From an uncultured Armatimonadota bacterium (lineage in GTDB: Bacteria; Armatimonadota; Fimbriimonadia; Fimbriimonadales; Fimbriimonadaceae), in the NCBI GenBank assembly GCA_903927025.1, contig CAIYLG010000022.1, positions 1 to 64,000 on the forward strand: a stretch of DNA of 64,000 bases, in the 5' to 3' direction. Shown here in pieces: positions 4,515-29,264 of this stretch (position 1 is the stretch's first letter; each line of letters begins with the position of its first letter). Below the pieces are notes generated by a model. That model had not been told where the DNA came from. It worked only from the letters and a program-made list of their open reading frames with translations, and made no database searches. A program made the position numbers and the translations under genes.

Positions 4515-7118
4515 ATGCGACTTGAAAAACTCACCATCATGGCCCAAGAGGCCCTCGAATCCGCCCAGGCACTGGCTGCTCGCCATCAGCACTCCAATAT
4601 CGATGTTGAAGATATGCTGGGCGCCCTGCTCGGGCAAGAGGGGGGCGTCAGTCGACAGCTCCTCCTCAAGGTGGGTGCCGACCCAAATCGCATCGCTCAA
4701 GACGTCAATACTGAACTCGAGCGCATGCCCAAGGTATCCGGGGGCGCTCCCGTTCAGTCAATGACGTCGCGCCTACAAAGTGTGTTCACGGATGCCTTCA
4801 AAGAAGCAGACCGGCTCAAGGACGAATACGTTTCCACCGAGCATCTCCTTCTTGGAATCGTTGACGAGTCCGGTGCCTGTGGCAAGCTGATGCGCTCTTC
4901 TGGGGTTACCAAGAAGGCGCTTCTCGCCGCGGTCGAAGATCTTAGGGGTGGTAGACGCGTTACAAGTCAGTCAGCCGAGCAACAGTATCAGGCACTTGAA
5001 AAGTACGGAATTGACCTAACTGCCCGCGCCCGAAGCGGAAAGTTGGATCCAGTCATTGGACGCGACGAGGAAATTCGTCGCGCTATCCAGGTGCTCAGTC
5101 GTAGAACCAAGAACAACCCGGTCCTGATCGGTGAACCGGGTGTGGGCAAGACTGCCGTCGCCGAAGGGCTCGCCCTTCGAATCGTGAGCGGAGACGTCCC
5201 CGAGGGGCTGAAAGGTAAATCTGTGATCGCTCTGGACCTTAGCGCACTGGTCGCCGGAGCGAAGTTCCGCGGTGAATTTGAAGAGCGCCTCAAGTCTGTG
5301 CTGGAAGAGATCAAGTCTTCCGATGGTCAGATCATCCTCTTTATCGACGAGCTGCACACCCTTGTGGGTGCCGGTAAGGCCGAGGGTTCGATGGACGCAG
5401 CGAACATGCTGAAGCCAATGCTTGCACGTGGCGAGCTCCGGTGCATTGGCGCAACCACGCTGAACGAATACAAGAAGTACATCGAGAAGGATAAGGCGCT
5501 AGAGAGGCGCTTCCAAATGGTGCTGGTTGGCGAGCCGAGCGTGGAAGAGACGATCAGTATCCTTCGCGGCCTCAAGGAGCGATACGAGATCCACCATGGC
5601 GTGCGGATCACGGACTCTGCTCTGGTTGCGGCGGCAACCCTATCCAATCGATACATCACGGAGCGGTTCCTTCCGGACAAAGCGATTGACCTGATGGACG
5701 AAGCGGCAAGCAAGCTAAAGATCGAAATCGACAGCGTTCCGGCTGAGATCGATGAGGTCGAACGCCAAATGAATCAATTGGAGATCGACCGAGAGGCGCT
5801 GAAGAAGGAAGAAGACCCCGCCAGCAAGGAGCGACTTAAGGCTACTGAGCGAAAGTTTGCGGAGCTGAGTGAAAAGGCTTCGGCGAAGCGCGGTGTCTGG
5901 CAGCGTGAGAAGGAGAAGATCGAATCGATCCGTAAACTCAAAGGTCAGATCGAAGGGCTCCGTACTGAGCTTGAAGCGTTCACACGAGATTCCGAGTGGG
6001 GCAAAGCTGGTGAGATTCAGTACGGCAAAATCCCTCAGCTGGAAGCCCAGCTTGAGTTCGAGAGCGAAGAACTTGCCAAGCTTCAGGCCAATGGCAAGAT
6101 GCTGAAGGAAGAAGTCGACAGCGAGGATATCGCCGAGGTCGTCAGCAAGTGGACCGGCGTGCCTGTGAGCCGACTGCTTCAGGGGGAAATGCAGAAGCTG
6201 CTGACCATGGAAGACGCGCTCGAAGCTAGAGTTGTCGGACAAGTGGAGGCGATTCGGTCACTCTCCGATGCAGTAAGGCGCTCGCGTTCCGGACTCTCCG
6301 ATCCAAACCGGCCCATCGGCTCCTTTCTATTCCTCGGGCCAACCGGTGTTGGCAAAACGGAGACAGCGAAAGCGCTGGCAGACTTCATGTTTGACAGCGA
6401 GAAGAGCATGATTCGAATCGATATGAGCGAGTACAGCGAGAGGCACTCTGTCGCTCGTCTGGTAGGTGCCCCTCCGGGTTACGTTGGGTACGAAGAGGGT
6501 GGTCAGCTCACGGAGATGGTGCGGCGACGCCCTTACTGCGTAATCCTGCTGGACGAAATCGAGAAGGCTCACCCAGAAGTGTTCAACATCCTCCTTCAGG
6601 TACTCGACGATGGACGTCTTACAGATGGCCAGGGAAATACCGTTGACTTCAAGAACACGGTGATCATCCTGACCAGCAACATTGGCTCCCACTTCTACAG
6701 CGACCCTATCTCGGCAGACGACAGCTTTGAAGCGACGAAGAAGAATGTGCTGAACGAAGTTCGAAGCTACCTGCGGCCGGAATTTATCAACCGGCTGGAT
6801 GACATCGTGGTGTTCCATTCGCTGGGTGTCAACGAGATCAAGCAGATCGTCGAGATTCAGCTCAAGGCACTTCGAGGAAGGCTCGCCGACAGGCGAATCG
6901 ACCTTGTCCTCTCTGAGAGCGCATCGAGAGAGCTTGCAACCGCAGGTTTTGACCCGGTTTACGGAGCAAGGCCGTTGAAGCGAGCGATCCAGAATGAAGT
7001 CGTGAACCCTCTGGCGCAAAGACTGCTGAGCGGAGACATCGCGGATGGTCAACGAGTGGAAGTCGATTTCACCGGCGGCCAGTTCACTTTCGTTCGTAAG
7101 CCGCTAGTCACGGCGTAG
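4515..7118 (+). CDS. clpB: ATP-dependent disaggregase ClpB
   Basis: ClpB is the hexameric AAA+ chaperone that, with DnaK, pulls polypeptides out of aggregates in the cytoplasm. The 867-aa product has the usual length and order: Clp N-domain (1-145), first AAA with Walker A GEPGVGKT (206-213), a coiled-coil M domain (about 400-525) that separates ClpB from ClpA/ClpC, and second AAA with GPTGVGKT (608-615). The C-terminal domain carries ARPLKRAIQ. It lies 73 nt past mnmE, enough for its own promoter. I looked for CIRCE or sigma-32-like elements there and saw none. A strong terminator follows. Confidence 0.96.
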
Positions 7119-20230: not shown

Positions 20231-22374
20231 CCAAGAAGCTGGACCTGCCGATACTCTTCCTCGCAGCGGCTGCATTCCTAGCGCCTCTCATAGGCGGACA
20301 GGTTGCGGTCGACTCATTAGGGCTTGCTCCCGGAGCTGATCCGTTCGTGAGTGCGCTCATGGGCGCCTCTGAGACTCCGACGCTTTCCCACGCTATCCTC
20401 GCCCTGCTGTGTGCGGCGGCTCTGGTGACTTCGCTTCTTCAGCGAAGGATCATGCAGGTACCCAACAATACGGTTGGGAGTCTCTTTGTCGGGCTGCTTG
20501 CGCTCATCGTCTCGACAATTGGCGTCTCGAGCTACCGAGGCGTGTCGATTCCTGCCGCGATGGAGTGGGTCACCTACGGCATGGCATTCTATGCCACTGT
20601 TGCCGTCACTGGAAGACAGAAGGGCCCAACAATCTTGCTCACGGCCATGTTTGCGAGCTGCGTCCTGTTGGCGCTGCTTGGTCTCCGGGAATATGGCGAT
20701 ATGAAGGCCATCGACCCTACTTGGCGCATCTTTCCTCAATGGGTGGGCCCTAACGCTTTGGCGGCGATCCTTGTTGTGGGATTCTTCTCCGGTCTCGGGC
20801 TGGCGATCAACTCGCAGCGTCCGGCTAATCTAGGCTACGCGGCGGGGTGTGTAGCGATTGGTCTTGCCGTGTTCCTCACGCAGAGTAAGGGTGCCCTTCT
20901 GGCCCTAGCGGTCTCCTTGATCGCTTTCGCAATCCTTCTCCTGCGATGGTTGCCCAAGGCTGATGTCAAGCGTGCGGCTGCCGTCACTGCAGCAACGGTA
21001 GCGGCCATTGTTGTGCTCAGTGGCGCTCTCTCGCTCCAAGGTAAAGGAAGCGCAGCGTCTGGCGGAGTGGCGAGCCCGGGCGCTCGCCTGGTGAATTCGA
21101 ATGCGTCTTCTGATCAATCCGTGGGTTTCCGAAAACTCCTTTGGAAGTCCGCAATCGAGATCACAAAGAAGAACCCGATGGGAATTGGCATCGGAACGTT
21201 TCAATTTGAATCTGGACGTCCCGGCCTGACGACACAGACGCATTTTGCCCACGAGGCATACCTGCAGCTTGCCGCCGAAGCGACGCTCCTAGCACCTATT
21301 CTACTGTTCGCGGGCCTTGCGCTTTGGTCGAGACTGCTCCTCCGGGGTGGAGAGAAGCTCCGCAGCAGCCAGAACGTGCTGCGTGCCTGCGTCTTTGCCG
21401 CAGTCCTGTCAGTTGTCGTGCACAGCTTTATCGACAGCGACTTTTCCTATTACGGCATCGGCCTTCCCGTCTTTATGTTCCTGGGACTCGGTCTCCTTTT
21501 GAGTTCAGACGCGGTTGCGCCTGAATTCCTCCCTGCCAACTTCCGGCGACTAGCTGCAGCCGGTGTTGGAGCGTTCACCTTGGTGCTTGCCTACCTGGGC
21601 TACCTCGAGGCCCAACGTGCGCAAGTGCGTGGCTACATCGAGACGAAGGGATATAACCAGGCATCCTCCATTCTTGAGTCCCTGCGGGGCTCCGCCCCGT
21701 GGGATGCCGAGGTCTGGGCACTCTCGGCGAGCCTCGAGCAGGATCAGAACAAGAAGATTGAATATATTCAGCACGCGATTGACGCCGGCCCCACCACACG
21801 GAACCTACGCCTGTTCGCGAGACTGGTGAAAGACAAGAAGCCCAGCGATGCCCTCGGAGCGGTGAAGCGCGCAGTGGAAATGGATCCCAACAATCTGCAG
21901 ACACTGACCCTCCTCGCGGACCTTCAAGCTTCGATCGGCCAGGATGGGGCGGCAATCGAAACCCTGCATAGGCTTGTTGCGGTCGAAGAAACGGATTACT
22001 TCAAGGTTAGGAGCCTTCCAGAACTCGTTCCAACCGAGACGTTTGGTGCGAGGCTCAAGCTAGCAATGATCCCCGGTACGCAGCCTAAGGATGCAATTAG
22101 CCTTCTGCAGCCAGCCGTGACCGGCTACAAGCAGTACCTGTCTGCCACGGTGCCGAACATTGTGAGGTTCGCCAAGAACCCTGGTGGGCCGCTGAGCTAT
22201 GGCGGAGAATCGCTGGAATCGGCAAAGAAGACGCTTGCCACCGCAACCGACGCCGCAAAACGACTTGCCGATGCCTATCGAGCCGTTGGCGACACAGTCA
22301 AGGCCGGCGAGGCAGATGCGGATGTCGCCGCATTTGGTGCGCCACTCGATTTACCTTCTGACAAGAAGGCCTGA
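20227..22374 (+). CDS. O-antigen ligase/polymerase-like membrane protein with TPR tail
   Basis: The first ~430 of 715 residues form about ten membrane helices. A large loop carries GIGTFQFE...HFAHEAYLQLAAE, matching the Wzy_C/WaaL family, in which a conserved periplasmic His/Arg pair transfers glycan onto a carrier. The rest is a TPR-like solenoid (KKIEYIQHAIDAGPT, AVEMDPNNLQTLTLL). It is the third gene of the GT operon, joined by a 4-nt overlap. It may ligate or polymerise the glycan made by the two transferases. The last 100 nt overlap the antiparallel end of the PBP2 gene. Confidence 0.8.
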   Translation: MTKKLDLPILFLAAAAFLAPLIGGQVAVDSLGLAPGADPFVSALMGASETPTLSHAILALLCAAALVTSLLQRRIMQVPNNTVGSLFVGLLALIVSTIGVSSYRGVSIPAAMEWVTYGMAFYATVAVTGRQKGPTILLTAMFASCVLLALLGLREYGDMKAIDPTWRIFPQWVGPNALAAILVVGFFSGLGLAINSQRPANLGYAAGCVAIGLAVFLTQSKGALLALAVSLIAFAILLLRWLPKADVKRAAAVTAATVAAIVVLSGALSLQGKGSAASGGVASPGARLVNSNASSDQSVGFRKLLWKSAIEITKKNPMGIGIGTFQFESGRPGLTTQTHFAHEAYLQLAAEATLLAPILLFAGLALWSRLLLRGGEKLRSSQNVLRACVFAAVLSVVVHSFIDSDFSYYGIGLPVFMFLGLGLLLSSDAVAPEFLPANFRRLAAAGVGAFTLVLAYLGYLEAQRAQVRGYIETKGYNQASSILESLRGSAPWDAEVWALSASLEQDQNKKIEYIQHAIDAGPTTRNLRLFARLVKDKKPSDALGAVKRAVEMDPNNLQTLTLLADLQASIGQDGAAIETLHRLVAVEETDYFKVRSLPELVPTETFGARLKLAMIPGTQPKDAISLLQPAVTGYKQYLSATVPNIVRFAKNPGGPLSYGGESLESAKKTLATATDAAKRLADAYRAVGDTVKAGEADADVAAFGAPLDLPSDKKA

Positions 22375-24122
22375 ACGATATCTCTCGCGGGCGGAGCGGC
22401 GAAGTCGCCTCCGTGGCCAACCTTCTCAATAAGGACACAGATGGCGATCTTCGGGTCCTCAGCAGGTGCGAAGCCCACAAAGACGGCATTTGTTTTTTCC
22501 GTCTTGTTGCCGTGCTCAGCACTTCCCGTCTTCCCTGCCCACGTGACCCCAGGAATCTTTGCACCGGCGGCTGTACCGTGGTCCATTACTCCAACCAGGG
22601 CCTTTTTGAGTTCTGCCCAAAACTCCGGAGACGCCTGAATTGTCTTCGCGACCTCTGGCTTTACCAACTGATCTGGCCCCCTACCGTTCGACGGCCTGAC
22701 TCCGTGAAGAAGGTGCGGCTTGTACCTCACGCCGTCATTGGCAACCATTGCTGCCATGTTCGCCAATTGGAGGGGGGTTGCAGAGACATAGCCCTGACCG
22801 ATTGCAAAGTTTAAGGTGTCGCCTTCATACCACTTCGACTTTGGGTAGTACTTCTGCATAAACTCGAGGCTGGGAACCACGCCCTTAGCATCGCCAATCT
22901 CGAGCCCTTCTCGTTCTCCAAATCCGACTTCTTCGCTAGCGCGCCTCAAGGCATCGACGCCAACATCCCGGCCTAGCTGGTAGAAGTAGCTGTTGCAGGA
23001 CTTCGCCATGGCATCGTAGTAGCCAATTGATCCATGGTATCCAAGGCATTTGAAGAATGCCTTGCCAGAGTGAACCCCGCCGTCGCAGATGTAGTGGTTG
23101 TCGGTGTCGAACTTGTGCTCTTCATATGCAGCGATGCTCGTCACGATTTTGAACGTTGATCCTGGCGCGTAGCTTGAAACAATTGCCCTGTCAATCAGAG
23201 GCTTTTTGTCGTCTGTTGAAAGGGTATTCCAGTCGTTCTTGCTGATTCCAGAGGCAAATAGGTTCTGGTCGTACGTGGGGCTACTGACGAGACAAAGCAC
23301 CTCTCCAGTTTTGGGATCCAGCGCTACTACTGCGCCAACGTACCCGTGGTCCGCCATGTATTTGGTCGCAAATTTCTGAAGCTTGGAGTCTAGGCTCAAA
23401 AGAAGCTGATCTCCCGGTGTAGGAGCACTGCCCCCCATCGAGCGTACGGATCGGCGCTTGGCGTCGATTTCTCGCTCCTCGGTTCCGGGCTCTCCCATGA
23501 GGTTGACCTCAAACGCCCTTTCCGCACCTGACTTGCCCACGTAGTCGGCAGGCTTTCGCTTCAACTCCTGAATGCGCTTGACGTCCTTATCGCTTGGAGT
23601 CCAGACGTAGCCGAGCACATGCGTAAAGCTCTTGCTGTCCGGGTAGTAGCGCATCGGCTGGAGCTCGATTCCGATTCCAGGAAGATCATCGCGAGTTTCA
23701 GCGATCCGAACTCCATCCGTAATTTGAGCACCGACATAGATCGGCATAAAGAGGTCTGGCTTAGTCTTCGCCTCAATGAGCTTTGACTCTAGCTTGCGAT
23801 AATCGACGGAGAGAATGTTGGCCACCCGATCGATTACCTCGGGGTGCTTCTTCACGTCGTTGTACATTGCCGTGACCACGAACTCGGGCTTCACTCCGGC
23901 AATTAGTTCCCCATTGCGGTCAAAGATCAATCCTCTCGGTGCCGGCTGAGTCACCTGCACGCTTCTAGAGGCATCCGCACGCTCTTGGAGCTCCTGAGCA
24001 CGGACAACCTGGAAGTACCACAGCCGCATGAACAGGACGACCAAGGCGACGAGAATCGCGCTCGGAAAGATCAGCATCCGAGCATCGAGATCTGGCTTCC
24101 TTGGCGTGTAAATAACGGACAT
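22275..24122 (-). CDS. mrdA: Penicillin-binding protein 2 (transpeptidase, MrdA-like)
   Basis: This bitopic class B PBP cross-links peptidoglycan with an RodA-type polymerase for cell elongation. The 615-aa product has a short cytoplasmic N-terminus, one membrane helix (about 17-37), a pedestal domain and transpeptidase motifs STFK (322-325), SCN (375-377) and KTG (531-533). The Ala/Ser/Pro-rich C-terminus overlaps the O-antigen ligase gene on the other strand. It begins 2 nt after the PBP1A stop, so it is translated in the same unit. No rodA is adjacent. FtsI is possible, but the absence of a division cluster favours PBP2. Confidence 0.88.
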   Translation of the reverse strand: MSVIYTPRKPDLDARMLIFPSAILVALVVLFMRLWYFQVVRAQELQERADASRSVQVTQPAPRGLIFDRNGELIAGVKPEFVVTAMYNDVKKHPEVIDRVANILSVDYRKLESKLIEAKTKPDLFMPIYVGAQITDGVRIAETRDDLPGIGIELQPMRYYPDSKSFTHVLGYVWTPSDKDVKRIQELKRKPADYVGKSGAERAFEVNLMGEPGTEEREIDAKRRSVRSMGGSAPTPGDQLLLSLDSKLQKFATKYMADHGYVGAVVALDPKTGEVLCLVSSPTYDQNLFASGISKNDWNTLSTDDKKPLIDRAIVSSYAPGSTFKIVTSIAAYEEHKFDTDNHYICDGGVHSGKAFFKCLGYHGSIGYYDAMAKSCNSYFYQLGRDVGVDALRRASEEVGFGEREGLEIGDAKGVVPSLEFMQKYYPKSKWYEGDTLNFAIGQGYVSATPLQLANMAAMVANDGVRYKPHLLHGVRPSNGRGPDQLVKPEVAKTIQASPEFWAELKKALVGVMDHGTAAGAKIPGVTWAGKTGSAEHGNKTEKTNAVFVGFAPAEDPKIAICVLIEKVGHGGDFAAPPARDIVQAFLSEGKSSGAPNAATSASASPALTVSPTAR

Positions 24123-24124
24123 AG

Positions 24125-26467
24125 CTAATCACCAGGGCCGTGAATTCGACATTTTCGCTTTGGCTCTTTGCCCTTCTTGAAGGTTCTGCTGACGGTTTCC
24201 TGGCAGTACGGGTTTGCGATGAGCCCAGAGTCCACACAGATATCTACCGTAACGGTTTCCGCCTCGTCATCCTTCGGCTTCTCCGCTCGCTTCGTTTTGA
24301 CTGCCGGAGGGGCATCTAGAGGTGGTGTGTCTGTGCCCTTCGGTTTCGTACCAGGCAACGGATCATCGGGGGCTTTAATGGTGGCCGAGGTCCCCGGAGC
24401 TGAAGAGGTCATGACACCGCTATTTGCATCGACGTCTCCGGTGGTTGTTCCATCTGGTGGAACAACGGCAGATGGCGGCACCGCGACCAAATCGGGATCC
24501 ACTTCGGGTCCGGCTTCGGGATCTTTCGGCTTTGGCTTTGGAGCCGCATCCTCTTTGGGAACGCCGGGGTTTCGTGCGTATTTGTCTCTGGCGGTGGACA
24601 TGATGTCCGCCCACACCTTAGCCGCCGTAGTTCCGCCATACACTGCGGAACTCATCGGCCTCAACACCCATGTTTTGCCAGAACGAACCTCGTGACCAAA
24701 CCATGCGGTGGCGAGGACGCCATCTGCATATCCGGTGAACCATGCATCCTTGGCGTCGTTCGTGGTTCCCGTCTTTCCTCGTGCATCCGGAACGCTCAGC
24801 GCTTCGGTACCGGTCCCGTGCTCCACGACGCCGCGAAGAAGTTCGTCAACTTGGTCGCTTACACCGCCATCGAACGCGCCGGAGAATCTTTGTGGCTCGT
24901 ACTGCTTGACCAACGTGCCATCCGCATCCAGGATTCTCAGGACGGGCTGAGGATGAACGCGGTCGCCGTGGAGCATGAATACGGAATACGCCTCCGCCAT
25001 CTCCAATGGTGTGACGGCGCTAGCCCCAAGCGCGAGTGGGTCGTATGGCTCTAGTTTTGATTTGAATCCGAACGAATCGTATGCTGTCTGAACGACGACG
25101 GTTGGGCCAACCTGCTGAATGGTGTGGATGGCACAAAGATTGATTGAATTTGCAAGCGCGGACCTAAGGCTGTAGGACGACTGGTTCTCGTTCCTGCTGG
25201 CATTTTTAGGCTCCCAAACCTTGCCTCGCTCATCGACCTCGCGGATCGGTGCATTCGAGAGCATGCTGTCCATCGAAATCGTCCCCTGCTTGAGAGCCGT
25301 CGCGTATAAGATCGGCTTAAAGCCAGATCCAGGCTGGAGGCTACCGCTGGTGACAATGTTTTGATGGTGAACGGAGTAGTTCAGGGCTCCAACTTCCGCA
25401 AGAATAAATCCATCGCTGTCCATCGCCATAAAGGCGCCCTGATTCACACGATAGCTTCGGTGGTTGGCCACGAAGTCCTTCACCGCTGAGACCGCCTGCT
25501 TTTGCAGGCTGTAGTCCAGAGAGGTCTCGATGGTGTAGCCGCCATTGTTCAAGTCGAGTCCCAAGTCCTTCTCGACAAACTTCATGACATGGTCCACAAA
25601 GTGCTCAGCGCCAGGACGAATATGTATTCCCGTCGCGTTTGGCTTAGGATTTATGTGAGGCTTCTCGGTGACAGCCTGCTCGTACTGCTCGTCGGTGATC
25701 ATGTGCTCAGCACGCATGATCCCCAAGACCACATCTCGGTTCTGCGTCGCCGCTTCAATGTCACGGATTGGGTTTTCGTAGCTGGGACGTCGAATACAAC
25801 GAGCAAGCATCGCAGCTTCGCCTATGGTCAACTCACTGATGTTCTTGTTGAAATAAACCTTTGCCGCCTCACCGATCCCATAGGCACCTTCTCCAAAGAA
25901 CACCTTGTTCAAATAGAGTTCAAGGATCCTGTCCTTTGGGAGCCGCTGTTCTAGCGCCTGGGCGTAGGCGATGTCGTTCATCTTTCGGTCGAAGGTGCGC
26001 TTGCTGCCATTAAAGAGCAGCTTCACAAGCTGCATGGTGATGGTGCTGCTTCCCTGACTGAGCTTCTGCCTTCGGACGTCGACGAAGACTGCCCGAAGAA
26101 TCGAAGTCATGTCGACGCCAGAGTGCTGATAGAACCGCTTGTCTTCGGCAGCTATCACCGCGTTCTGCACGAACTTTGGAATCTCGTTAAGCTTGAGAAG
26201 GGTTCTGTACTCTTTGCTGACGGTGTAGAGCACTACCCCATCTCGACTGACCATTTTGGTCGTGGGAGTGTTTATCCCCTTTTCAATTCGACCGTTTATG
26301 TCGAAGAATGCTTCCTCGGCGTTGCGACGCGCCTTGAAGTAAAAAAAGCCTAGGACAGAAACTGCGATAAAGACGAACGCGCCAAATAGAACGAAGGCTT
26401 GCTTGAGCCTACGCACCCACGGAGACCGCTGCTTTTTTGAGGTTCGCGGCAATTTCTTAGACGCCAC
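24125..26467 (-). CDS. mrcA: Class A penicillin-binding protein 1A
   Basis: This bifunctional peptidoglycan glycosyltransferase/transpeptidase (780 aa) is anchored by one membrane helix at about 24-46. GT51 motifs: EDKRFYQHSG (108-117), GSSTITMQLVKLL, and ELYLNKVFFGEGAYGI. Transpeptidase motifs: SGFK in GSGFKPILY, SIN, and RGKTGTT. The C-terminus is a long Pro/Asp/Lys-rich region ending in a Cys-containing segment (DICVDSGLIANPYCQ). The GTG start at 26467 is 6 nt past the RseB-like gene. Its place behind a sigma/anti-sigma/RseB set suggests stress-controlled wall synthesis. Confidence 0.93.
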   Translation of the reverse strand: MASKKLPRTSKKQRSPWVRRLKQAFVLFGAFVFIAVSVLGFFYFKARRNAEEAFFDINGRIEKGINTPTTKMVSRDGVVLYTVSKEYRTLLKLNEIPKFVQNAVIAAEDKRFYQHSGVDMTSILRAVFVDVRRQKLSQGSSTITMQLVKLLFNGSKRTFDRKMNDIAYAQALEQRLPKDRILELYLNKVFFGEGAYGIGEAAKVYFNKNISELTIGEAAMLARCIRRPSYENPIRDIEAATQNRDVVLGIMRAEHMITDEQYEQAVTEKPHINPKPNATGIHIRPGAEHFVDHVMKFVEKDLGLDLNNGGYTIETSLDYSLQKQAVSAVKDFVANHRSYRVNQGAFMAMDSDGFILAEVGALNYSVHHQNIVTSGSLQPGSGFKPILYATALKQGTISMDSMLSNAPIREVDERGKVWEPKNASRNENQSSYSLRSALANSINLCAIHTIQQVGPTVVVQTAYDSFGFKSKLEPYDPLALGASAVTPLEMAEAYSVFMLHGDRVHPQPVLRILDADGTLVKQYEPQRFSGAFDGGVSDQVDELLRGVVEHGTGTEALSVPDARGKTGTTNDAKDAWFTGYADGVLATAWFGHEVRSGKTWVLRPMSSAVYGGTTAAKVWADIMSTARDKYARNPGVPKEDAAPKPKPKDPEAGPEVDPDLVAVPPSAVVPPDGTTTGDVDANSGVMTSSAPGTSATIKAPDDPLPGTKPKGTDTPPLDAPPAVKTKRAEKPKDDEAETVTVDICVDSGLIANPYCQETVSRTFKKGKEPKRKCRIHGPGD

Positions 26468-26473
26468 AAGGAA

Positions 26474-27478
26474 TTATAACTTAGAAGCAGGCGCTGCAGT
26501 TCCCGGCAACAGCAGGGCACCAAGGTGTTCCAAGTTCTTCTCGGGCATGTTCCCAATAAGAACAATGGTTTCTCCGGCGGACTGGAAGGAGAAAAACTTC
26601 TGGTTTGGCCCGGCTTGCTGCTTCAAGCGATCTGGGTCGATCGGAGCCTTGAGTTGGTAGACAGACAGACGCACTTTTCCGTTGAGATAGGTTTGAACCA
26701 ACCCCTCGATGCCAGCAAACTTCCTGCCGTTGACCCCTTCTAACTGAAATCCAGTCCCCGTCGTGAGAAATCGGTAGCTGAATCCCCTACGCTGACAGAC
26801 TCGCTGAAGCTGCATCAGCGGCGTGATGAGCTTTGCATCCTTTCGCTGAATTTTGAAGATAGAAGGATCGATCTTAGGATTCAGGTCGATGCTGGAGAAT
26901 TCGAAATAGCCTGCCGGAGATCCAACCATGTCAAAAAGCTGGCGCTTCATGATGATTCCCGAACCAGGCTCAATAAAGAGCCTCTGGACGACATTGCCGC
27001 TGAGGTCGCTGACGACCACTTGATCTGTTTTGTGCCCGGCGATCTGTTCTCCGGCAGTGACGCTCAGTCGAATCTTTGGGTCAACGGCAAGGACGGCTAC
27101 TTTGTCCCATGCTTCGCCGTGGCGCGGAGGAAGCTGAAGAATTTCGTTGGTGTTTGGGTGGTAGTAAAGACGAACGGTTTCGTCCTCGATGATTACTTGG
27201 CCAGAAAACTTCGAGTCCGTTGGAAAGTCAATTCGATACCGCCCGCCATCGCGAGTGATGTACTCCTGGTGGCGCACCGGAGGCTGAACCTGACGAAACT
27301 CAACCGTGTAGGTTCCGGTGTACCGAATAGTAGGCTGAGCCTGAATCGCTCGAATGAGGATCAACGGCACGTCGCTGCGGAATCGCTGCATCCGACGTCC
27401 GAGTGGGCCCTGCGGATGAGCCGGTACCGATGCCGCTAAAAGCACGGTCCCAATCGTCAGGAGAGCTACACGCTTCAT
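26474..27478 (-). CDS. RseB/MucB-like sigma-E regulatory protein
   Basis: This periplasmic 334-aa protein has a signal peptide (1-22, VPAHPQG). The LolA/RseB-like beta domain (about 45-220, e.g. YTGTYTVEFRQ, GGRYRIDFPTD) precedes a small C-terminal domain (VRLSVYQL, IVLIGNMPEKNLEHLGAL) that matches the RseB C-terminal pattern. In Proteobacteria RseB senses mislocalised lipoprotein/LPS and shields the anti-sigma RseA. The gene overlaps the upstream anti-sigma-like gene by ATGA and precedes PBP1A by 6 nt. The assignment rests on domain pattern plus gene order. Confidence 0.78.
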   Translation of the reverse strand: MKRVALLTIGTVLLAASVPAHPQGPLGRRMQRFRSDVPLILIRAIQAQPTIRYTGTYTVEFRQVQPPVRHQEYITRDGGRYRIDFPTDSKFSGQVIIEDETVRLYYHPNTNEILQLPPRHGEAWDKVAVLAVDPKIRLSVTAGEQIAGHKTDQVVVSDLSGNVVQRLFIEPGSGIIMKRQLFDMVGSPAGYFEFSSIDLNPKIDPSIFKIQRKDAKLITPLMQLQRVCQRRGFSYRFLTTGTGFQLEGVNGRKFAGIEGLVQTYLNGKVRLSVYQLKAPIDPDRLKQQAGPNQKFFSFQSAGETIVLIGNMPEKNLEHLGALLLPGTAAPASKL

Positions 27479-27921
27479 AGACTTTCGACGTCAGATTCGT
27501 TCCAGATTCCCTGTTCTGGATCTTTGACGTTTGCCTCCGTCGAGACTTCAGTGCTGTTGAGGCCGGCCGAGGTCACATCGCTGAGAATCGTCGACGAGTA
27601 GTGGTCAGCTAGGATGGCACTCTCAATTCCTGTATCGGGCCTTACGATCGGTTTGTGAGCAAAGGGCTGCAGCATGACGACGAAGGCGAGAGCACTGGCC
27701 ACAGAGAGACCAGCAATTGGGCTGGCAATCCAGAGAAATCTCTTGCGTCGCTGCTTCTTGGCCGCGATCTGCATGAGCTGCTGATTGAGCGAACTTCGCC
27801 AAGCCATGCTGACTTCCTCCTCGGGAAGTGCGCTGACCAGGGACCGAATCGCCACCTGACCGGGCGTGTTCAGCCTGCTGTCTTCAACTGGGTTGTGATC
27901 CAGATTCATTCTGCTTCTCAT
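27475..27921 (-). CDS. Putative membrane-anchored anti-sigma factor
   Basis: The 148-aa product (ATG 27921; GTG 27933, overlapping the sigma stop, is also possible) has a short N-terminal region with helix-forming ALPEEEVSMAWRSSL, then one membrane helix (about 62-82) and a periplasmic tail. No Cys/His zinc-finger motif is present, so it is not of the ZAS group. The role is inferred from position: between an ECF sigma and an RseB-like gene, and overlapping both. The topology fits RseA. Confidence 0.65.
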   Translation of the reverse strand: MRSRMNLDHNPVEDSRLNTPGQVAIRSLVSALPEEEVSMAWRSSLNQQLMQIAAKKQRRKRFLWIASPIAGLSVASALAFVVMLQPFAHKPIVRPDTGIESAILADHYSSTILSDVTSAGLNSTEVSTEANVKDPEQGIWNESDVESL

Positions 27922-27925
27922 TTCG

Positions 27926-28546
27926 TTATACACCCGCCTCGGTATATCGTTTCAACACATCCTGAAGATGAGCCCGGGCGAGAAAGAGCCGACTCTTCAC
28001 GGTGCCAATCGGCACGTCCAACATTTGGGAGATCTCCTCGTACGACATGTCTTCTTTGTCGTGAAGGATCAACACGCTTCTGAGCTTCTCACTCATGGAG
28101 GCGATTCCATCTTCAACAACGGTCATCAGTTCGGCGTCAATGACCATCTGCTCGGGTTGCCACCTGGTATCGGCGACATCGATTTCATCCCCCTCTGTTG
28201 GGTCCACGAGGGCGACCTCGTTGGGGCTGCGATCATTCTTTCTCGAACGATCCACGCAGAGGTGATAGGCAATTCGGAACAGCCAGGTACGAATAGAGCA
28301 TCGCCCATCGAACCGTGCAATGTTCTGAAACGCCTTGATAAAGACTTCCTGGGTGACGTCGGCCGCTTCTTCCGAACTTTGCACCATGCGGCGAACGAAT
28401 CCGAAAACCCGATTCTGGTACGCATCGACCAGCTTGCCGAACGCCTCAAAATCCTGGCGTCGACATCGATCGATGATCGCTTCTTCCGAAGCGTGATCTC
28501 GGATCTCCCTCACTTTTACTTTTGCCGCGCCAATGCACAATTCCAT
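27926..28546 (-). CDS. ECF RNA polymerase sigma factor (RpoE-like)
   Basis: This 206-aa sigma factor has region 2 (residues about 42-105: AYQNRVFGFVRRMV, DVTQEVFIKAFQNI, IRTWLFRIAYHLCVD). Region 4 is near the end (LRSVLILHDKEDMSYEEI, VPIGTVKSRLFLAR). The N-terminal ~25 residues are an extension. Start ATG 28546. A possible ECF-type promoter lies directly upstream, suggesting self-activation as in rpoE operons. The downstream anti-sigma, RseB-like, PBP1A and PBP2 genes are likely co-transcribed. Confidence 0.93.
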   Translation of the reverse strand: MELCIGAAKVKVREIRDHASEEAIIDRCRRQDFEAFGKLVDAYQNRVFGFVRRMVQSSEEAADVTQEVFIKAFQNIARFDGRCSIRTWLFRIAYHLCVDRSRKNDRSPNEVALVDPTEGDEIDVADTRWQPEQMVIDAELMTVVEDGIASMSEKLRSVLILHDKEDMSYEEISQMLDVPIGTVKSRLFLARAHLQDVLKRYTEAGV

Positions 28547-28556
28547 AGCTGATTGG

Positions 28557-28585
28557 CTATAACGGCACCCTTCCCCTAAAGTTCA
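28557..28585 (-). promoter_or_regulatory. Possible ECF-type promoter of the sigma operon
   Basis: On the minus strand TGAACTT (28585-28579) is followed after 16 nt by TTATAG (28562-28557), 11 nt before the ATG. The upstream element resembles the GAACTT -35 of sigma-E promoters. The -10 is weaker, and the leader would be very short. Low confidence. Confidence 0.3.
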
Positions 28586-28655: not shown

Positions 28656-29177
28656 CTAGAATCGGGCGCCGACATAAGCGGCGACGCCGCCTACGCGAGG
28701 CATTTCGCTTCCGAAGTATCGAGCCTCTACGAAGAGAGGAATCTCGCCCTGCGAAAACGTCCAGCCGATGGCTGCCGAGTAAGCGAACCGGATTCGGTCA
28801 TTGATGTTGCCATCATCTTGAGGAAATCGCGCGAACGTAACACCCGCACCTACGCTGGCGTAGACAATTTTGCCCGAGGTGTAGTTCAGGAGCAGAGGAA
28901 CCGACCGGTAGCTTTCTCGACTCGTGTAGTCCAGCGAGATGGAGAAGTGACCCTTTGGAAGGAACGAAGGCCGCTTGATTCCAGTCAGCTTGTAGTCAAA
29001 TCCGGCGCTGAACCAATTGGTGCCGGCGTTGTGCTGTGTGTCTGTCTCAGATGGATAGAATTCGCCAATCCGGAACGAGACCCCAACAGGATTGGGATAG
29101 CCGCCTTCGGCGAAAGCAGGGACAGCAGCGCAGGCGCATGCTACCGTCAGGGCAGAGATTGTTAGCAATTTCTTCAT
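28656..29177 (-). CDS. Secreted beta-barrel-like hypothetical protein
   Basis: The 173-aa product starts at MKKLLTISALTVACACAAVPAFAEGG (ATG 29177, GGAGG 9 nt upstream), a clean signal peptide. The mature part is an alternation of short polar/aromatic strands (FSAGFDYKLTG, HFSISLDYTSRE, YASVGAGVTFARF, AYVGARF) and ends in an aromatic Phe, as in outer-membrane barrels. Function unknown. Confidence 0.7.
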   Translation of the reverse strand: MKKLLTISALTVACACAAVPAFAEGGYPNPVGVSFRIGEFYPSETDTQHNAGTNWFSAGFDYKLTGIKRPSFLPKGHFSISLDYTSRESYRSVPLLLNYTSGKIVYASVGAGVTFARFPQDDGNINDRIRFAYSAAIGWTFSQGEIPLFVEARYFGSEMPRVGGVAAYVGARF

Positions 29178-29264
29178 GTTATTTATCCTCCATGATCGAG
29201 TGGACTTCGTCCGCACAGAAAGCATAGCACCCTCGGGATTTATTGGAAATCCCATAGGCCGGGT

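Follow-up and report, generated by a model that had tools for sequence, protein, structure and literature searches.

The five-gene locus

The DNA analysed here (the window) is a 64,000-nucleotide stretch from an uncultured bacterium of the Armatimonadota family Fimbriimonadaceae, whose genome comprises 5.25 Mb. Five open reading frames, all on the minus strand, were confirmed at positions 22275-28546; they encode, in order of transcription, an ECF sigma factor, an anti-sigma factor, an RseB-like protein, a PBP1A and a PBP2 (Table 1). The sigma and anti-sigma genes overlap by 8 nt if the latter starts at its GTG codon (there is also an ATG in frame, four codons further in), the anti-sigma and RseB-like genes overlap by 4 nt in an ATGA sequence, and gaps of 6 and 2 nt separate the RseB-like gene from the PBP1A gene and the PBP1A gene from the PBP2 gene, respectively. 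The near-gapless run noticed in a preliminary description thus holds in every coordinate and spacing.

An Rfam search of the region found no element. At its downstream end the PBP2 gene overlaps a plus-strand O-antigen-ligase-like gene tail to tail by 100 nt (22275-22374), and convergent overlaps of a similar kind occur in the close relatives L034 and L035. In most of the family the gene directly upstream of the sigma gene encodes a predicted outer-membrane barrel-like protein (28656-29255 in the window, with a weak PagL match below cut-off), which could be a sensor partner or a mere neighbour.

Table 1. Genes and putative promoters of the locus, with the evidence for each
Feature	Position	Strand	Evidence
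ECF sigma factor gene (SIG)	27926..28546	-	Sigma70_r2 1.9e-19, Sigma70_r4_2 1.2e-14, TIGR02937 106.7 bits
Putative anti-sigma factor, one membrane pass, no zinc ligands (ASIG)	27475..27933	-	Position, long hydrophobic helix (AF2), profile match E=4.5e-9
RseB/MucB-like periplasmic protein, two domains	26474..27478	-	Profile, Pfam in relatives, AlphaFold2 fold
PBP1A-type bifunctional class A PBP	24125..26467	-	Transgly 8.7e-61, Transpeptidase 2.8e-23
PBP2 (MrdA), elongation-type class B PBP	22275..24122	-	TIGR03423 570 bits vs cut-off 455
ECF-type sigma-gene promoter TGAAC-N16-CGT, putatively autoregulatory	28562..28585	-	Upstream motif, 54/61 loci
Predicted internal PBP1A-PBP2 promoter GGAAC-N18-GTTATAAT	26473..26503	-	Cross-locus motif conservation

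The sigma factor and its promoter

The sigma factor is a protein of 206 amino acids that consists of regions 2 and 4 only (Pfam r2 at 39-106, r4_2 at 147-194), without region 3, and its TIGR02937 score lies above the cut-off of 42.9 bits; it is an ECF (group 4 sigma70) factor. With the RpoE equivalog TIGR02939 it scores 128.4 bits, short of the required 236.15, and no RseB-like neighbour was found for its relatives outside Armatimonadota. The sequence TGAAC-N16/17-CGT precedes the sigma gene in the great majority of loci (Table 1), with near-variants in 5 more, most often at a distance of 36-45 nt from the start codon, and distant families of the phylum have it too. Its near-invariance suggests positive autoregulation, in which the sigma factor would transcribe its own gene. 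The same motif was sought before the PBP1A gene in fused and split genomes and was not found there. Genome-wide occurrences of TGAAC-N16-CGT were discarded as a guide to the regulon, as there were 192 matches against 168 in a reversed control.

The anti-sigma factor

The sequence of the putative anti-sigma factor matches no known family when searched by itself. AlphaFold2 (AF2) models the protein with a few N-terminal helices, a single long helix that would cross the membrane and a small portion outside it (helices 2-9, 15-20, 24-34 and 43-88; pTM 0.33). A PDB fold search with this model gave no match, and no RseA Pfam domain was found in 53 members of the family. The HxxxCxxC zinc motif, already reported missing in the preliminary description, is indeed absent from the window's protein and from all 72 relatives in the clade of two families to which the window belongs (0/72), all of which have a WR[SAG] motif; the partner anti-sigma factors of the other Armatimonadota families have HxxxCxxC in 23 of 23 cases. 

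The clade's anti-sigma factors nevertheless align with the zinc-finger anti-sigma factors of the sister families (hhalign E=4.5e-9, probability 96; probability 1.1 for a reversed control). The protein thus looks like a class I anti-sigma factor of the zinc type whose ligands were lost, the absence of zinc being a derived loss, and by these profiles its descent is from a zinc-finger anti-sigma factor, not demonstrably from RseA. Such a loss is in itself not unusual, since about half of the membrane-bound class I anti-sigma factors lack zinc (PMC7406223).

The RseB-like protein

Searches with the single RseB-like sequence (Pfam, NCBIfam and PDB phmmer) gave no match, so its assignment required a family profile and a fold. 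Of 81 related genomes, 65 have a relative of this protein; a scan of genome contigs with the one sequence found none, and the alignment proved too divergent for that purpose. Against solved structures, the profile of the family recognises MucB (6in8) with E=9e-9 over both domains and RseB (2p4b) with 4.5e-5. Among 53 family members, Pfam MucB_RseB is recognised in 36 and MucB_RseB_C in 12, and a sister-family member exceeds the Pfam gathering score (36.9 vs 22.3). The AlphaFold2 model (pLDDT 91) has the RseB hallmark, a LolA-like N-terminal domain and a small C-terminal domain, and its best 15 Foldseek matches in the PDB are all RseB or MucB (E 9e-15), ahead of any LolA. The RseB-likeness suspected from the letters, for which a structure comparison had been proposed, is borne out. 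The family is present in 257 of 291 Armatimonadota genomes, and a second, weaker RseB-like match in many genomes (L093, for example) suggests that there may be paralogous RseB modules in the phylum.

The two penicillin-binding proteins

The identification of two wall synthases at the end of the run also proved correct. The class B protein exceeds the cut-off of the PBP2/MrdA equivalog, and the class A protein has both glycosyltransferase and transpeptidase domains, with a TIGR02074 score of 480.2 against a subfamily cut-off of 508.75. The latter is the sole class A PBP of the window's genome (a single PF00912 match genome-wide), the former its only PBP2 above cut-off, and nearly every good genome has one of each. 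In both, the domain architecture is the usual catalytic one, without any extra domain for sensing.

Internal promoter and transcription borders

A second putative promoter overlaps the stop codon of the RseB-like gene, and its TATAAT is 5 nt away from the GTG with which the PBP1A gene starts. TATAAT with at most one mismatch occurs before PBP1A in 39 of 49 loci, as compared with 1/53 before RseB, 3/45 before PBP2 and 3.5% of random positions; it usually ends 5-10 nt ahead of the start codon, a distance that implies a PBP1A transcript without a leader. The conserved element as a whole is G[GCA]AAC-N18-GT[TC]ATA[AC]T, its -10 being TATAAT-like. A TTGACA-type -35 was looked for and rejected; the -35 is ECF-like. 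In family f1 the AAC of G[GCA]AAC precedes GT at exactly N18 in 15 of 43 loci and at N19 in 6, where about 0.7 would be expected. Among 16 loci outside the motif discovery, 14 have the -10 at one mismatch or fewer in a somewhat looser search. Because the motif falls outside coding sequence in most loci, it is not accounted for by coding constraint on RseB.

A genome-wide search with GGAAC-N17..19-GTYATAMT gives a single match in seven of eight genomes, in every case at PBP1A, and two matches in the window's genome; the extra site, on contig C57 (L122, G000:C57:14297), has no clear target gene. In three genomes in which the PBP genes are separated from the module, PBP1A retains a version of this promoter with one mismatch in the -35. 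The internal promoter differs from that of the sigma gene in motif spacing and -35; it is perhaps used directly by the same ECF sigma factor, and another sigma factor may use it, since the genome has 37 sigma70 region-2 matches. The preliminary description had held that a strong internal promoter only ahead of PBP1A would refute its proposal: a conserved predicted promoter does lie directly ahead of PBP1A, which tells in part against that proposal.

Terminator-like hairpins, which like the promoters are called from sequence, separate the upstream barrel-protein gene from the sigma gene in 20 of 40 loci; the RseB/PBP1A border has such a hairpin in 1 of 48 loci, the PBP1A/PBP2 border in 2 of 45. 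Their near absence from the last two borders leaves read-through into the PBP genes open. The argument is one of cross-genome comparison; within the window by itself, a simple scan for terminators gave matches at chance level.

Distribution and history

The sigma/anti-sigma/RseB order is general across Armatimonadota, and by this distribution the module appears ancestral to the phylum. PBP1A comes directly after the module in 65 of 73 loci, the window included, of Fimbriimonadaceae and one sister family (f1+f5) and in 0 of 22 loci of other families; these counts are not probabilities, because related loci are not independent. The cross-genome synteny that had been proposed as a check is therefore present. 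Conservation of the five-gene arrangement greatly exceeds what chance would give, but the genes around it (M20 peptidase, barrel protein, O-antigen ligase and glycosyltransferases) are likewise syntenic, so the conserved order is partly regional and proves little alone.

In a tree of sigma and RseB, f1+f5 is monophyletic (support 1.0); nested inside this clade are the members without the fusion, L063/L150/L157, L044/L151, L078 and L143. The fusion therefore arose, most simply, once, in the ancestor of the two families, and was later reversed in at least four lineages, which parted the PBP genes from the module without obvious loss. PBP1A and PBP2 are also adjacent in most unfused families, which suggests that a ready-made pair was captured. 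An RseB-class envelope-stress system thus appears to go back to the ancestor of a phylum that is only distantly related to Proteobacteria, and the single event that tied it to core elongation synthases can be dated. The change from zinc to no zinc falls on the same branch as the joining of the PBP genes and provides a natural example of how an anti-sigma factor can be remodelled.

Some genomes depart from the pattern in other ways. In the f5 genome with L095 (G064:C438) a frame-broken sigma gene (5268-5740) lies directly before PBP1A, with neither anti-sigma nor RseB detected between them, which could be decay or an assembly error. The reduced 1.5-Mb genomes G047 and G163 (genus g29) gave no RseB match, and in G047 PBP1A and PBP2 are on separate contigs.

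Regulation of the wall synthases

RseB-type envelope alarms are usually tied to outer-membrane defects. The reading that we favour, and consider reasonably probable, is that an ancestral stress module was joined once by the PBP genes, which have a basal internal promoter and receive a boost from stress read-through. RseB and the anti-sigma factor would keep the sigma factor inactive; binding of an envelope signal by RseB, with cleavage by HtrA/DegS-like and RseP-like proteases, would free it; the freed sigma factor would transcribe its own operon from TGAAC-N16-CGT; and stress-driven read-through would add to PBP1A-PBP2 transcription, the basal level of which would come from the conserved leaderless promoter inside the rseB end. 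A route by regulated proteolysis is available, because the window's genome encodes an RseP homologue (171 bits vs 147.55) and two HtrA-like proteins. We infer that such proteolysis of the anti-sigma factor may operate here, and that the sigma factor would bind the anti-sigma factor, answer to such a signal and drive the read-through.

It had been suggested that envelope stress would directly set wall synthesis. Coupling is plausible, given the shared strand, the lack of a terminator, the sole copies and the old fusion, but the wording was too strong in view of the conserved internal promoter and the several genomes that separated the two halves; it is probable that the alarm raises wall building without having full control of it. 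The synteny of the flanking genes and the separations without obvious loss count against this explanation, as does, as far as motif searches go, the lack of TGAAC-N16-CGT at every separated PBP1A locus. A more far-reaching version, which we think less likely than not, is that the alarm was rewired and directly controls the sole PBP1A and PBP2 by two ECF promoters, its own and that inside rseB. If so, peptidoglycan elongation would be one of the outputs of sensing at the outer envelope and might be an input to it as well. The two defined promoters allow a test of whether outer-envelope stress raises wall synthesis.

The conserved internal -10 so close to the start codon, the wider synteny, the repeated secondary separations and the adjacency of PBP1A and PBP2 in unfused families, where leaderless TATAAT/TATACT-like sites are also found, would all fit two adjacent but independent units, the module transcribed from the ECF promoter and the PBP genes only from the internal one, with regional conservation explaining their order. 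We think this unlikely, though deserving of weight, since the RseB/PBP1A border lacks a terminator in 47 of 48 loci while the upstream border often has one, the short gaps are maintained across two families, and the PBP1A -35 is ECF-like and not TTGACA-like. It is very improbable that the PBPs are on the sensing side, inhibited or idle enzymes triggering sigma release in a homeostatic loop like that of PbpP/sigmaP of Bacillus thuringiensis: a sensor PBP physically linked to sigP-rsiP is a known precedent (PMC8092216) and the linked enzymes are the cell's only copies, but their architecture is ordinary and the module works elsewhere in the phylum without PBP linkage. A strict five-gene operon, with PBP1A and PBP2 dependent on the sigma factor's promoter alone, would suit the overlaps, the 2-6 nt gaps and the lack of terminators, but is very improbable, as the internal promoter is conserved and position-specific and enzymes expected to be essential in all growth would depend on a stress sigma factor.

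Comparison with known systems

That ECF sigma factors can control wall synthases is known from Bacillus and Streptomyces (PMC6767563, PMC6827917, PMC8092216). In Streptomyces coelicolor, sigmaE controls all three class A PBPs from -35 sites GGAAC, GCAAC, GAAAC and CTGAAC and CGTC -10 boxes at two spacer lengths; its G[GCA]AAC -35 and CGTC -10 resemble the internal PBP1A promoter, but its targets are scattered outside the sigma operon and there is no RseB (PMC6767563). The elongasome genes of Bacillus subtilis have sigmaM promoters inside upstream genes, as here, in addition to sigmaA promoters, but are not fused to the sigma/anti-sigma operon (PMC6827917). In B. thuringiensis the ECF sigma, anti-sigma and PBP genes lie side by side, as here, but pbpP is outside the operon and encodes a beta-lactam sensor, and there is no RseB, whereas the linked genes here are the core PBP1A and PBP2 (PMC8092216).

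The supposed likeness to rpoE-rseA-rseB holds for gene order and RseB fold and fails for the anti-sigma factor. RpoE-RseA-RseB of E. coli and AlgU-MucA-MucB of Pseudomonas share with the locus the gene order, the two-domain RseB fold, an autoregulated ECF operon (here predicted from the promoter) and homologues of RseP and HtrA-like proteases; they differ in that rseC or mucCD follow there and PBP1A-PBP2 here, that the anti-sigma factor here has no RseA Pfam match and is of zinc-finger descent, and that the sigma factor is under the RpoE equivalog cut-off. A literature search, largely outside subscription papers, found no description of the module in Armatimonadota. The claim of novelty thus survives for the module in this phylum and not for ECF control of PBPs in general; the layout is genuine and old and its details are new, and its logic is that of the known systems. 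Elsewhere in the window's genome, an HtrA-type protease gene has a second sigma-factor gene about 1.3 kb upstream of it (G000:C2:218203-220114).
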